DNA from: an uncultured Poribacteria bacterium
Lineage (GTDB): Bacteria; Poribacteria; WGA-4E; PCPOR2b
Direction: 5' to 3'
NCBI GenBank assembly: GCA_958296125.1
Contig: OY282444.1
Span: 1,178,001-1,242,000, forward strand
Length of the DNA: 64,000 nt
Translations under genes and position numbers: made by a program
Shown: piece after piece, positions 8,866 through 63,997 of the stretch
Position numbering within the stretch: position 1 is the first letter of the stretch
Layout: each line of letters opens with the position of its first letter
The notes under the pieces: model-generated
The model's database searches: none
What the model was told of the DNA's origin: nothing
What the model saw: only the letters and a program-made list of their open reading frames with translations

Positions 8866-8899
8866 AATCACTGTTTAACTGATAAGATTGGAAATGTCT

Positions 8900-10102
8900 A
8901 TGGGAATTTACGAACAGTTTGGAGTTACACCGATTATCAACGCCTCCGGAGCGGTGACCCGTCTCGGAGGTGCGCCGATGCCCGATGAGGTATTGCGAGC
9001 GTTTAACGAAGCCGCCCGCGTGTCGGTGCCGCTTGAACAACTTCAGGCAGCTGCATCCCAAGTCATCGCGGCGGCAACCGCAACGGAAGCCGGTTTGGTC
9101 TCCGCTGGTGCTGCCTCCGCCCTGACCTTAGGAGCCGCTGCCATCTTGACAGGCTACGACTTGGGATTGATGGAGCGGTTGCCGCACTGCGACGGATTTC
9201 CCAACGAATTCGTTGTCGCACGAGAGCAGCGCAGCGGTTACGACCACGCCGTAAGAGCCGCCGGCGCACGGTTGGTTGAGGTCGGCTTCAACGAAATCGT
9301 TGCAAATGCGGGGGTCCGGCGAGCTGAAGCATGGGAGTATGAAGCTGCTTTTGGCCCAAATACTGCGGGAGTGCTTTATGTGTATAGCCCGACCTCCAGC
9401 CCTCCGCTTGAAGCCGTGGTTGAGGTCGCACATCAGCATCAACTTCCTGTGTTGGTAGATGCAGCCGGGGAGCTGCCCCCGCGCAGTAACCTCATATCCA
9501 TTGCGGCGACGGGTGCCGATCTGGTAGCGTTCAGCGGCGGCAAGTCCATTCGAGGGCCCCAATCAACAGGGATTCTCTGCGGCCGTCAAGACCTGATCGG
9601 GCCCGCCGTCGCACAGTTGTTAGATATGGACGACCACTTAGAACTTTGGAATCCACCGGCATCGCTCATTGATAAGACGAAACTCCGCGGCATTCCGCGA
9701 CACGGCATCGGACGCGGTTTTAAGGTGTCAAAGGAAGAGATTATTGCCCTGCTTGTGGCGCTGCAGCTTTTCACCTCCGGTGCTTACGATGAAGAAGTCC
9801 TCAAGGCGCGTGCCCGCCTCGGACGAATAGTGGAACGGCTAAACCCCTCTCCCGTGCAATGTAGCATCCGTGATAAAGGAGATGGTCAAAGCCTCCCACT
9901 GTTGGAAATTGCGGTTGATGAGGCGGCTGTCGGTCGAGGGGCAATGGAGATCTGTCAGCGTCTCCGCAACGGTGTCCCCCCGATTTATGTCAGCCACGGC
10001 AGTCTTCAAGCAGGAAAACTTCTGATCAATCCACTTCACCTAGACGACAGCAACACCGAAACGCTTGCCGAACGAGTGCGTCAAGAGTTGGAACAGGGTT
10101 GA
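8900..10102 (+). CDS. SelA/DgaE-like PLP-dependent enzyme
   Basis: 400 residues from ATG 8900 (TTG 8888 and ATG 8894 are also in frame). IYEQFGVTPIINASG at the N-terminus and FSGGKSIRGPQSTG, whose lysine (residue 215) should bind PLP, place it in the SelA-like fold type I group. It lacks the N-terminal tRNA-binding extension of genuine selenocysteine synthase, which is about 460 residues long, and has SGGK rather than the SGDK usual in SelA. It therefore resembles the D-glucosaminate-6-phosphate ammonia-lyase (DgaE)-like branch acting on small amino or sugar substrates. It ends 45 bases before the putative selenocysteine peroxiredoxin on the same strand. Whether that neighbourhood is functional or chance is unknown. 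Confidence 0.8.
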   Translation: MGIYEQFGVTPIINASGAVTRLGGAPMPDEVLRAFNEAARVSVPLEQLQAAASQVIAAATATEAGLVSAGAASALTLGAAAILTGYDLGLMERLPHCDGFPNEFVVAREQRSGYDHAVRAAGARLVEVGFNEIVANAGVRRAEAWEYEAAFGPNTAGVLYVYSPTSSPPLEAVVEVAHQHQLPVLVDAAGELPPRSNLISIAATGADLVAFSGGKSIRGPQSTGILCGRQDLIGPAVAQLLDMDDHLELWNPPASLIDKTKLRGIPRHGIGRGFKVSKEEIIALLVALQLFTSGAYDEEVLKARARLGRIVERLNPSPVQCSIRDKGDGQSLPLLEIAVDEAAVGRGAMEICQRLRNGVPPIYVSHGSLQAGKLLINPLHLDDSNTETLAERVRQELEQG

Positions 10103-10147: not shown

Positions 10148-10645
10148 ATGCCACGAAAAAACAAGATTCTTAACATCGGTGATACGGCACCGTTATTCAC
10201 GCTGACATCTGTTCAACGTCAAACGGTGAGCCTTGAGTCCTATCTCGGTCAACAGTCGGTTATTCTTGTCTTCTTCCGGGGGACATGGTGACCGAATAGC
10301 CGTCGCCAGTTAGGAGACCTACAGCGTAACAGCCATGAATACGCAGCCTTAGGAGCTACGGTGCTTAGCGTCGTTGGTCAATGGCCCCGCGAAGTGCGTC
10401 GATACGCCGAAGCCCACGCTATCACCTTTCCGCTGCTCACGGATAAAGATCGGCAGGTGATTAAAAGCTATGGGGTGCACCATTGGCTGGGGCTCGATGC
10501 TTACAACATCGCTCGCCCTGCGACATTCGTGACCAATAAGGACCTCATTATTCGGTTCATATACATCGGATCACATCAGTTTGACCTCGCCAAACATGGG
10601 GATATTATCGCAGCTCTGAAGGAGCTTCAAGATAGCACAAACTGA
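10148..10645 (+). CDS. Peroxiredoxin-like (AhpC/TSA) selenoprotein with in-frame TGA (Sec48)
   Basis: Read through one TGA at 10289-10291, this frame gives a complete 165-residue thioredoxin-fold protein. It runs from MPRKNKILNIGDTAPLFTL through VILVFFRGTW, the TGA codon, PNSRRQLGDLQR, then FPLLTDKDRQVIKSYGV and ARPATFVTNKDLIIRFIYIG. In this peroxiredoxin-like family the motif is (F/Y)RGxWCPxCRxQ; the TGA sits exactly where the peroxidatic cysteine belongs, and the second cysteine is serine. Coding similarity continues in the same frame on both sides, so a random nonsense mutation is unlikely. A SECIS-like hairpin follows directly. Expected role: selenol-based reduction of peroxides or disulphides in the cytoplasm. 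A conventional caller would report only a fragment from 10361. The ribosome site before ATG 10148 is weak. Confidence 0.87.
10297..10321 (+). promoter_or_regulatory. Bacterial SECIS-like hairpin downstream of the in-frame TGA
   Basis: The stem pairs TAG (10297-10299) with CTA (10319-10321), then after a CC bulge GTCGCC (10302-10307) with GGAGAC (10313-10318), with one G/A mismatch. The apical loop is AGTTA (10308-10312). Sixteen bases separate the TGA from the loop and the second loop base is G. Both agree with the known rules for bacterial SECIS elements: loop about 16-37 nt after UGA, G within the first two loop bases. It would recruit SelB-GTP-Sec-tRNA. The pairing was found by eye, without energy calculation. 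Confidence 0.65.
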
Positions 10646-22968: not shown

Positions 22969-23511
22969 TCACGCTCCTTCACGGGCTTTCATCGCGTCAT
23001 TGGTCGGTTTCGGCGGCAGGGTTAACACTTCCTGCGGAAAATGTTCGACAAGATAAGAGATAATGTGGCGAATTGACACGATTCCAACCGGCTGGTTTTG
23101 TTCATTTACGATGGGTATATGGCGGTAACCGCCTTTCGCCATATACAGTATCGCCGTATCCAGGGAATCCCTTACATGGGCGGTCTGCGGGTCGGCTTTC
23201 ATAAATTGATCGATAGGAATTTGTGTCAAATCGCCTATCGGCTTGTTCAGAATTTTCAGCAGCACATCTCGCTCACCGAAAATCCCTTTGAGCACTCCAT
23301 CGGATACAATGAGGATAGCACCGACCTTATTGTCGAGCATTCGATCGATTGCTTCTTGTGTACTCACCCCTTCGTCAACCGTGACAGGGGGATACATTAA
23401 AGAGTGAAGCGGGACATGAATTTCGTGAGGACTCAAGGTTTTTGATGGCTCATCGGGGGTTTTCTCATCCATGATAGCCAATTCTTCTTCAACGATATCT
23501 TGGTAAAGCAC
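22969..23511 (-). CDS. CBS-domain pair protein
   Basis: 180 residues. GTG start at 23511 with AAGGAGG eight bases upstream; that ribosome site lies in the last codons of the preceding gene. After a flexible N-terminus, a CBS pair spans about residues 36-165 (STQEAIDRMLDNKVGAILIVSDGVLKGIFGERD and YMAKGGYRHIPIVNEQNQPVGIVSIRHI). Such pairs bind adenine nucleotides or related ligands and regulate partner proteins. No catalytic domain is attached. Its place directly before the oxidoreductase genes suggests energy-state control of that enzyme, an inference from gene order. Confidence 0.88.
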   Translation of the reverse strand: MLYQDIVEEELAIMDEKTPDEPSKTLSPHEIHVPLHSLMYPPVTVDEGVSTQEAIDRMLDNKVGAILIVSDGVLKGIFGERDVLLKILNKPIGDLTQIPIDQFMKADPQTAHVRDSLDTAILYMAKGGYRHIPIVNEQNQPVGIVSIRHIISYLVEHFPQEVLTLPPKPTNDAMKAREGA

Positions 23512-23514
23512 GGT

Positions 23515-23955
23515 TCATCCCTCCTTATCTTCCTCCAAAAACGCAGCGACATAATTCGCAATATCCTTACTTGAGACAACACTAGCGGGATATACACCTT
23601 CATCCTCATCAGATTCTCCAACGAGCAGGGGGATATGACGAAAGTGACCTAGGTGCATGAGGTTCAAGGCAAATGCTATCGAATCAGTGAGGCGCAACGA
23701 TTCCGGCGATGGAGTCATGATATCATCTACTTGAATCTTGTCAGGGTTTGCCCGCACCTCGGTGATGTGAACAAGTAAATCCCGTTCCGTGATGATGCCA
23801 GCGAGCTGCTCCTGTGCATCAACGACTAGCACACACCCAAATCGCCCTTCCTGCATCAAATCGATAACCTCTGAAATAGGTGTGCCCGTCTCTACAGTAC
23901 AAGGTTGATTGAGGTTCAGTATGCTAATCGGTAAAGATAGGGTTTGCGCGTCCAT
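23515..23955 (-). CDS. CBS-domain pair protein
   Basis: 146 residues, ATG start with AAAGGAG upstream. Two CBS motifs are visible: ISEVIDLMQEGRFGCVLVVDAQEQLAGIITERDLL and ALNLMHLGHFRHIPLLV...ASVVSSKDI. It is the first gene of the operon with the second CBS protein (3-base gap) and the 2-oxoacid oxidoreductase subunits. The two CBS proteins share organisation but differ in N- and C-terminal extensions, so they may be diverged duplicates forming a heteromeric sensor. Confidence 0.88.
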   Translation of the reverse strand: MDAQTLSLPISILNLNQPCTVETGTPISEVIDLMQEGRFGCVLVVDAQEQLAGIITERDLLVHITEVRANPDKIQVDDIMTPSPESLRLTDSIAFALNLMHLGHFRHIPLLVGESDEDEGVYPASVVSSKDIANYVAAFLEEDKEG

Positions 23956-24504
23956 GGGGGTCTCCTTTCAATCAACGTCTGAATCAATCATATTTCTTTT
24001 GCAAAACTGGTTAAATGGGTCAGCGACGATAGTGTGAAAATGGTAGCACATACCCTCGGCATTTTGCAAGTTGAAATGGAGCAAAATCATTCGAGAGTTC
24101 ATGGATTCATTGGGTCATGACGAGACACCCTGAAAACGATCGGACGAGGAAGCGGGTGTGTGAGGGAGTGAGTGTTTTGACTCGGTCTCACCCCTCCTCA
24201 GTCCCACGCTCCCACTTTTTCCCGTTATCCCGTTTTCCGGGCTTCACGTTTCACTCTCGGTCTCAACAGTTGCAAACTGGCACCATTGGTTTATGGTTCA
24301 CACGATAACAATTATATCACCATGTTAATCAGCTGTCCATAAGAAAAAGGATTAGGGGGCTATAATGACCCCCCTCTATCCCCCGCAAGCGGGTAGGATG
24401 ACCCCCCTAATCCCCCCGCAAGCAGGGGGAAGGGGCCTACTTGGATCGGGTTGGGATATAGGGGAATTGCATCTGTTAGGAGAATTAAGTTCTTCAACTT
24501 GGCT
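23956..24504. other. Intergenic region between divergent operons
   Basis: About 550 bases with no supported gene. It includes a CACGTTTCAC unit (about 24245) related to short repeats elsewhere in the window, and a third copy of the GC-rich repeat (listed separately). A 63-codon plus-strand frame at 24117 has no ribosome site or motif. Confidence 0.6.
24353..24445. repeat. GC-rich intergenic repeat, third copy
   Basis: Contains CCCCGCAAGCGGG and CCCCCCTAATCCCCCCGCAA units ending in GGGGCCTACTTGG. It is in the same orientation as the block at 16252-16560 but shorter. It lies in the divergent intergenic region before the TPP-enzyme gene. Confidence 0.7.
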
Positions 24505-61424: not shown

Positions 61425-61822
61425 TCAGAACATGTCGGTGATTAAAATTTTTATCGTTTTTTTTAGTGGTTCTCGTATTTTTTTTGTCATTTTCGTGATT
61501 TCCTGAGCGATTTCCGCACGAAAATTGGGGGGGGCGACCATCTCCGCACAACCGCCCCATTGCAAAACCTGACGCATCAACCCTTTTCGTCCTTCAGTAT
61601 CGAAGTGCATTTCGATTTGGTCATTCCCTAAGTCGATCTGTTTTTGCAAACCCTGCCATTTCTGGACGCGCACCCAGCGGGAGGCAGGTGGGTCCACACG
61701 GATGACCGCTTGCACTGGTTGGTTTTTCATGCCGCCAAAGCCGCGTGTGATGTACTCATTGAGGTCGAAGCCTTCTTGAAGGTTAAAGGCTTCATTGAGG
61801 AGTGTCAGCGATCGCACGATTC
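61425..61822 (-). pseudogene. Truncated WYL-domain transcriptional regulator (C-terminal WCX part)
   Basis: The minus-strand frame reads IVRSLTLLNEAFNLQEGFDL, then AVIRVDPPASRWVRVQKWQ and EMVAPPNFRAEIAQEITKM. This is the end of the WYL domain and the WCX extension of WYL regulators, about 130 residues. The N-terminal HTH and most of the WYL domain are missing: the frame runs straight into the first main-array repeat at 61823. Long A-runs near the 3' end could add frameshifts. WYL proteins often regulate CRISPR-Cas and other defence systems, so this was probably the local regulator before it was cut. Confidence 0.75.
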
Positions 61823-63997
61823 CTTTCAGTCCCCTTTTCATCGGGGCACGGGTTGTAACTACAAAGCACTGGACGTTTAGGACAGATAGCTCAACTTTCA
61901 GTCCCCTTTTCATCAGGGCAAGGGTTGTAACTATTTATAGCGGGATGCGTTGCTTTCAGTCCCCTTTTCATCGGGGCACGGGTTGTAACTAAAGAATCGC
62001 TGTTGCTCCGCGTAGAAAGTTGCCTTTTCAGTTCCCTCTTCATTGGGGCACGGGTTGTAACTGAACGCCAGCAGCGCATCAAAGTCTTTCAAACCATACT
62101 TGCAGTCCCCTTTTCATCGGGGCACGGGTTGTAACCGAAGGAGGGAATCCACTCCGAGCAGGCACGCAACTTTCAGTCCCCTTTTCATCGGGGCACGGGT
62201 TGTAACGATCTTATCCCCGAATCTTTCTGCGTGTTCTCGTGTCTTTCAGTCCCCTTTTCATCGGGGCACGGGTTGTAACGGCAGACTGCTGGCTACAGGG
62301 GGACGCTTATTCGCTCTTTCAGTCCCCTTTTCATCGGGGCACGGGTTGTAACCAGTAGAGATATTCGGTGCCGTTCTATCGGTGCATCTTTCAGTCCCCT
62401 TTTCATCGGGGCACGGGTTGTAACCGACATCGAGAAACCAAAAGCAACGCTCTTGCGACCTTTCAGTCCCCTTTTCATCGGGGCACGGGTTGTAACAATG
62501 CTAGAAACTTGACGCGTGGATTATTGTCTAAACTTTCAGTCCCCTTTTCATCGGGGCACGGGTTGTAACCTGCGGACTGTCACTATCAATCTAAGTTGAC
62601 CGATACTTTCAGTCCCCTTTTCATCGGGGCACGGGTTGTAACTCTTCAACCATAGCCCGGCTGGTGTCGTCAAATTCCTTCTTTCAGTCCCCTTTTCATC
62701 GGGGCACGGGTTGTAACCTGCGGACTGTCACTATCAATCTAAGTTGACCGATACTTTCAGTCCCCTTTTCATCGGGGCACGGGTTGTAACTCTGTCAGGT
62801 GCTGTCCTTTCAGTCCCCTTTTCATCGGGGCACGGGTTGTAACTGACCGAGCTCTATGTCGTCGCCGAGTTCACTGTCACTTTCAGTCCCCTTTTCATCG
62901 GGGCACGGGTTGTAACTGTCGTAGTCTGTCATAGGCTGTCGTAGTCTGTCGTCTTTCAGTCCCCTTTTCATCGGGGCACGGGTTGTAACCGGTGCGTATC
63001 GGTGCTATCTTTCAGTCCCCTTTTCATCGGGGCACGGGTTGTAACTGTAGAGAATATCAAGGCATTCGGTACCGTTCATAGTCTTTCAGTCCCCTTTTCA
63101 TCGGGGCACGGGTTGTAACAACTTCAACAGATTGAAGCACGAGGGCAACAACAACCTTTCAGTCCCCTTTTCATCGGGGCACGGGTTGTAACCAAACGAA
63201 CGAGGGACAGCACAAAGGGGCTGTAGAATCTTTCAGTCCCCTTTTCATCGGGGCACGGGTTGTAACCTGAATTCTTGTCGATTTCGCTTGACTTATTATC
63301 GCCTTTCAGTCCCCTTTTCATCGGGGCACGGGTTGTAACTTGGGTCTGAGGCGCAGTGGTATTGTAGTATCGATTGCTTTCAGTCCCCTTTTCATCGGGG
63401 CACGGGTTGTAACGAATTAACAAGCAGCACAGTTGTTACGCAACTGACACCTTTCAGTCCCCTTTTCATCGGGGCACGGGTTGTAACCGAGACAAGGTTT
63501 CTAAAGAGGCGATCGTCGTAAACTTTCAGTCCCCTTTTCATCGGGGCACGGGTTGTAACTTAACAGGCACATTCGAGGGCGGAGGTTTGGGGTATCTTTC
63601 AGTCCCCTTTTCATCGGGGCACGGGTTGTAACCTTCATCTGCTACCGTGCTGGAGGATCTGCAGGTTGCTTTCAGTCCCCTTTTCATCGGGGCACGGGTT
63701 GTAACATGAATCATAGGTTAAAGCACTTCTGCCAGTGATAGACTTTCAGTCCCCTTTTCATCGGGGCACGGGTTGTAACCAAGGATATCCTGTAGAAGAA
63801 AGAGAACATCGGCGTCTTTCAGTCCCCTTTTCATCGGGGCACGGGTTGTAACCACGAGAATACTTGCAGTCACACTGTCTCGTAGAATCTTTCAGTCCCC
63901 TTTTCATCGGGGCACGGGTTGTAACGCAAATTTCGCTTTAGAAACCGTTCAGGTTGGAGACTTTCAGTCCCCTTTTCATCGGGGCACGGGTTGTAAC
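61823..63997 (-). CRISPR. Main CRISPR array, at least 31 repeats, runs off the window
   Basis: 31 repeats of 37 nt (plus-strand start CTTTCAGTCCCC, end GGGTTGTAAC) and 30 spacers, mostly 34-38 nt. Repeats 2 (61895), 4 (62025) and 5 (62099) carry substitutions; the rest are essentially identical, so decay is at the left. Read on the minus strand the repeat starts GTTACAAC and ends ACTGAAAG, with a CCCC/GGGG stem, like Cas6-processed type I or III repeats. Left-end decay and this polarity both place the leader to the right, outside the window. Short spacers: 21 nt (61932), 16 nt (62791), 19 nt (62990). The spacer at 62570-62605 is repeated at 62718-62753. No cas genes are visible. Confidence 0.97.

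Follow-up and report, generated by a model that had tools for sequence, protein, structure and literature searches.

A gene that standard callers split, in an uncultured bacterium of the sponge-associated phylum Poribacteria, is, as judged by comparative genomics, a genuine selenocysteine (Sec) redox enzyme that has been kept across the phylum. The best explanation overall, and one held with considerable confidence, is that it encodes a peroxiredoxin (Prx)-like selenoenzyme of thioredoxin fold, in which Sec48 would be inserted by way of SelB and tRNA-Sec with the help of a downstream RNA element and would act in a one-Sec cycle.

Identification of a Prx-like frame read through one UGA

The gene lies at positions 10148 to 10645 on the forward strand of the 64,000-nucleotide stretch of DNA analysed here (the window), terminal TGA included, and encodes 165 amino acids through one UGA. 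Translation of the frame placed its single internal TGA at codon 48 (10289–10291, +), and a family scan showed that the AhpC/TSA domain PF00578 spans residues 10–137 unbroken at this TGA (E = 8e-28). A table 11 gene caller would list only the piece after the TGA (10361–10645). The original prediction had described a selenoprotein overlooked by standard gene calling, with a TGA in an otherwise intact AhpC/TSA-like frame; both statements were confirmed.

Conservation and selection across the Poribacteria

Each of the six genomes of the window's genus has TGA at the identical codon, in orthologues that are 81–85% identical, and TGA was retained in 66 of the 67 close orthologues (rows with E below 1e-39) counted in a phylum-wide search. 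The sole exception, locus L122 of genome G027, carries TGT (Cys) instead. As the downstream CAGTTGGCGGCAG sequence is still kept at this locus, the pattern looks as a recent Sec-to-Cys change would; the genome also still has tRNA-Sec. More distant homologues likewise have Cys in column 48, as had been anticipated.

No further stop was found within codons 1–160 in any of 56 distinct orthologue sequences, although stops elsewhere in the gene had been named beforehand as what would speak against a selenoprotein. For the same 56 sequences, dN/dS was 0.08 before the TGA and 0.09 after it, and purifying selection is equal on both sides. The flanks, described in the original prediction as conserved at the level of the family, both belong to one PF00578 domain. 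On the tree, every poribacterial orthologue is of the Sec form save the one Cys tip. Sec (motif UPRC) is also present in the closest outgroup sequences, which come from unclassified MAGs, and the Armatimonadota homologues have Cys in the Sec column (motifs CPFC and CPYC), the order of the outgroups being unsure owing to long branches. Viral contigs yielded no relatives.

Selenocysteine machinery and UGA decoding

The window's genome, a single 5.16-Mb contig of Candidatus Poribacteria, contains a tRNA-Sec with anticodon UCA that scored 76.6 bits (cut-off 47). It is directly adjoined on the same strand by selB (370 bits) and selA (601 bits), the three forming one cluster, and selD (370.5 bits; locus L048) is also present and itself contains a single TGA, within the motif KTCGUAAKVSP. 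All four of selA, selB, selC and selD were thus recovered, where a lack of selB and selC from a complete genome would have weighed against Sec insertion, and the claim that this organism decodes UGA as Sec stood. Across the phylum, tRNA-Sec was found above the cut-off in 73 of 85 genomes. It gave no match in seven genomes that carry an orthologue, and since all seven are multi-contig drafts, missing contigs are the likely reason. Sponge-associated Poribacteria would accordingly be seen to decode UGA as Sec nearly throughout the phylum; a search of a collection of open literature found no paper naming both Poribacteria and selenoproteins.

On all of the genomic evidence, the UGA at codon 48 is best read as a selenocysteine codon, and two other accounts of it were weighed. 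A pseudogene formed by a random nonsense mutation in a formerly ordinary gene, or a sequencing error, would suffice for one in-frame stop in a frame known from DNA alone. It would not, however, put TGA at one and the same codon of 66 of 67 orthologues, which come from many independently assembled genomes, nor leave 56 sequences with no other stop and a dN/dS of 0.09 past the TGA, and an accident of this kind was rejected as having a negligible chance of being correct; that a random stop at codon 48 is improbable had been claimed from the outset, and the sharing of the TGA among orthologues bore this out. Selection for full read-through would be compatible with UGA being read as another amino acid, such as Trp, through a change of code or selenium-free programmed read-through. 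Yet TGA terminates 12 of the 39 long ORFs in the window and, because it is their ordinary stop, UGA has not been reassigned. Moreover, tRNA-Sec (anticodon UCA), SelA, SelB and SelD are present, and the residue that replaces Sec in the lone exception is Cys, which distant homologues also have in that column. Reassignment was consequently rejected, and any non-Sec decoding appears virtually inconceivable. Decoding as Sec agrees with what is found for bacterial selenoproteins generally, namely a UGA with Cys homologues, Sec machinery in the genome and selection past the UGA.

A candidate SECIS downstream of the UGA

When synonymous codon diversity was scored in 140 eight-codon windows, the deepest deficit in the gene fell at codons 48–58, and the top-ranking stretch, codons 49–57 (10292–10318, +), is proposed as the bacterial SECIS (bSECIS) region. 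In the orthologue alignment, codon 51 is invariably AGY, codon 54 CAG and codon 55 TTR. Folding of the UGA plus 45 nt gave a candidate hairpin, GUC-G-CC[AGUUA]GG-A-GAC (10302–10318, +), whose apical loop AGUUA occupies 10308–10312, 16 nt past the UGA; a related hairpin with the loop AGUU occurs in other families. Published rules for bSECIS elements call for an apical loop of 3–9 nt with an early G, a stem of 4–16 bp, a spacing of 16–37 nt and a minimum free energy of at most -7.5 kcal/mol (PMC13188914). The AGUU/AGUUA hairpin agrees with these on loop, early G and spacing. In the window gene it is moderately stable at -6.2 kcal/mol (UGA + 45 nt), short of the published limit, and the orthologue hairpins range from -5.8 to -19.5 kcal/mol, most of them reaching it. 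Covariation gave a weak excess of paired cells (88.8% vs 87.3% in shuffles), RNAalifold returned no more than a small stem in the SECIS region, with no compensatory changes, and Rfam had no match anywhere in the window. Because of the codon constraint after the UGA, a SECIS is likely to be located there, with the exact fold given above as a candidate.

A thioredoxin-type active site in a Prx-like fold

Alignment indicates that the protein is a thioredoxin-type UxxS site set within a Prx-like fold and not a peroxiredoxin with Sec as its peroxidatic residue (Cp). In both single-sequence and profile searches against solved structures, Sec48 aligned to the Thr/Ser of the Prx motif PxxxTxxC. Ser51 (10298–10300, +) aligned to the column of the peroxidatic Cys (AhpE and BCP/PrxQ structures), and Pro124 (10517–10519, +) to the catalytic Arg of true peroxiredoxins (Arg116 in AhpE), which is the cis-Pro column of thioredoxins. 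Pro also occupies this column in the poribacterial orthologues displayed. Peroxiredoxins have lost the N-terminal thioredoxin Cys and have Arg at the cis-Pro position (PMC2757866), and the thioredoxin-type class was assigned because the Sec48, Ser51 and Pro124 columns fit these criteria. The AF2 model (pLDDT 90.8) places Sec48 immediately before helix 49–60, and the closest solved folds are AhpE and Bcp4 (1xvw, 3hjp; TM-score 0.84–0.88). Of the features that define a peroxiredoxin, the AhpC/TSA fold is therefore present, and a catalytic residue in the Cp column and the catalytic Arg are not; the marks of a UxxS protein are present, as the sequence is Prx-like and its motif begins with Sec and ends with Ser.

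The original prediction had instead taken the TGA to lie exactly at the peroxidatic cysteine, which would make the protein a true 1-Cys-type peroxiredoxin with Sec in place of Cp. It was correct in that the first Cys of the WCPxC motif is the residue replaced, but the Cp column is that of Ser51, three residues on. An AhpC/TSA domain, nearest folds that are the 1-Cys enzymes AhpE and Bcp, and the chemical suitability of Sec for peroxide reduction would all be in keeping with a peroxiredoxin. However, Sec48 falls on Thr and Ser51 on Cp, and the hallmark PxxxTxxC with its Arg has given way to RGTWUPNS (RxxxUxxS), with Arg44 at the Prx Pro and Pro124 at the catalytic Arg. Furthermore, the same genome shows how Sec peroxiredoxins look, as it encodes two in tandem (L032/L045) of the genuine TxxU type, with the motif FTGGUT. 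A peroxiredoxin with Sec as its peroxidatic residue was not substantiated and is considered quite improbable.

Relation to known selenoproteins

The UxxS family is said to have been introduced in a 2007 paper on an Olavius symbiont. A Prx-like UXXC selenoprotein was described in 2005 from the Sargasso Sea selenoproteome (PMC1088965), and appears in a 2026 review as a Prx-like thiol:disulfide oxidoreductase (PMC13188914). Table 1 of that review, which makes no mention of Poribacteria, includes a peroxiredoxin-like UxxS family, cd02970, with the representative MDX2448127.1. Like the UXXC protein, the poribacterial protein is a distant Prx homologue with Sec at the thioredoxin-type first position and not in a TxxU motif, but its second position is Ser, and no Cys at all is found in the window's genus. 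With the cd02970 family it shares both the AhpC/TSA class and UxxS, and it probably belongs with that entry, beside which it is set by the listed motif alone. The selenocysteine peroxiredoxin (TxxU) of Eubacterium acidaminophilum, as cited in PMC13188914, likewise combines a PF00578 domain with Sec in the active site, but there Sec is Cp, at the second position, whereas the poribacterial Sec is at the first. Mycobacterium AhpE and Sulfolobus Bcp4 offer the nearest solved folds; unlike in AhpE, however, the Cys is replaced by Ser51 and the catalytic Arg by Pro124. Prx-like UxxC and UxxS selenoproteins, in the manner of which the poribacterial protein would work, are already catalogued, and what is new here is a phylum-wide, strongly conserved member.

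Proposed mechanism

In the mechanism proposed from comparative genomics, the UGA at codon 48 would be decoded as Sec by SelB and tRNA-Sec, with an RNA element directly after the UGA guiding insertion. Sec48 would then sit at the N-terminus of helix 1, in the place of thioredoxin's nucleophilic Cys, with Ser51 as the second position and Pro124 at the cis-Pro position. Most likely, the enzyme would run a one-Sec cycle: its selenolate would reduce a hydroperoxide or disulfide, and the resulting selenenic acid or selenenyl-sulfide would be reduced by an external thiol, by analogy with glutathione peroxidases (UxxT) and monothiol enzymes of the CxxS type. The likeness to glutathione peroxidase would lie in one Sec, a hydroxyl residue at the second position and an external thiol reductant; in the family scans, GPx models gave no match to the poribacterial protein. 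The protein of the window and those of its genus contain zero Cys, so the reductant there would have to be an external thiol, and a one-Sec cycle is the simplest course given that there is no conserved partner thiol. Nearly half of the Sec-form sequences (25 of 55) have Cys156 near the C-terminus, one of the 25 having Cys68 as well, and Cys156 might serve as a resolving residue in these. What advantage Sec confers on a thioredoxin-type site that has lost its partner Cys is a question for which the family would offer a natural test.

Genomic neighbourhood

The Sec gene is followed by ribD in the same orientation at 39 of 49 loci, the gap after its stop codon being mostly no more than about 300 nt; three of the ten remaining loci end too early to judge. 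In most other poribacterial families the order is the Sec gene, then ribD, riboflavin synthase (ribE), ribBA and lumazine synthase (ribH) (L064–L112). Among the fetched loci, this linkage to the riboflavin operon is absent from the window's genus and family. As the gene precedes ribD-ribE-ribBA-ribH in most Poribacteria, a flavin role may be entertained, and it was considered whether this vertically inherited, phylum-wide and Cys-poor enzyme (Cys-free in one genus) with its one Sec could represent a novel functional class linked to flavin metabolism, or to peroxide derived from flavins, and not a general peroxidase, a proposal that is tentative and, on balance, rather doubtful.

The upstream neighbour in the window (8888–10102, +) encodes a SelA-like PLP enzyme related to the DgaE type, a relative of which also precedes the Sec gene at four further loci among those retrieved. 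It was rejected as a component of the Sec machinery, as its score of 44.8 bits is far below the 267.9 of the selA cut-off, and the true selA is elsewhere. The downstream neighbours were assigned as M16-type peptidase genes by inspection of their sequences. In many orthologues (e.g. L070, L074 and L094), the ATG of the Sec gene comes just 8 nt or so after the end of a -10-like sequence (TATAAT, TAAAAT or TACAAT), a spacing so short that leaderless transcripts are suggested.

Other selenoproteins and features of the window

Further TGA-containing Prx/thioredoxin-like genes were found in the same genome, with the motifs RGSWUPFC (L026) and TYUPHC (L038). With the tandem FTGGUT genes and the TGA-containing selD included, the genome is predicted to encode at least six selenoproteins, and a poribacterial genome would hold several thioredoxin-fold selenoproteins that ordinary annotation fragments.

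At 22972–24000 (-) of the window, two consecutive CBS-domain-like ORFs share one frame and are split by a single TGA (EEDKEG-TGA-TVLYQ); judged from the window sequence alone, they are probably two genes. Towards the window end, a CRISPR-like array occupies 61804–63926 and beyond, in which a 37-bp repeat (CTTTCAGTCCCCTTTTCATCGGGGCACGGGTTGTAAC) recurs about 31 times, every 73 bp or so, and one spacer-repeat unit is duplicated (62587 and 62735).
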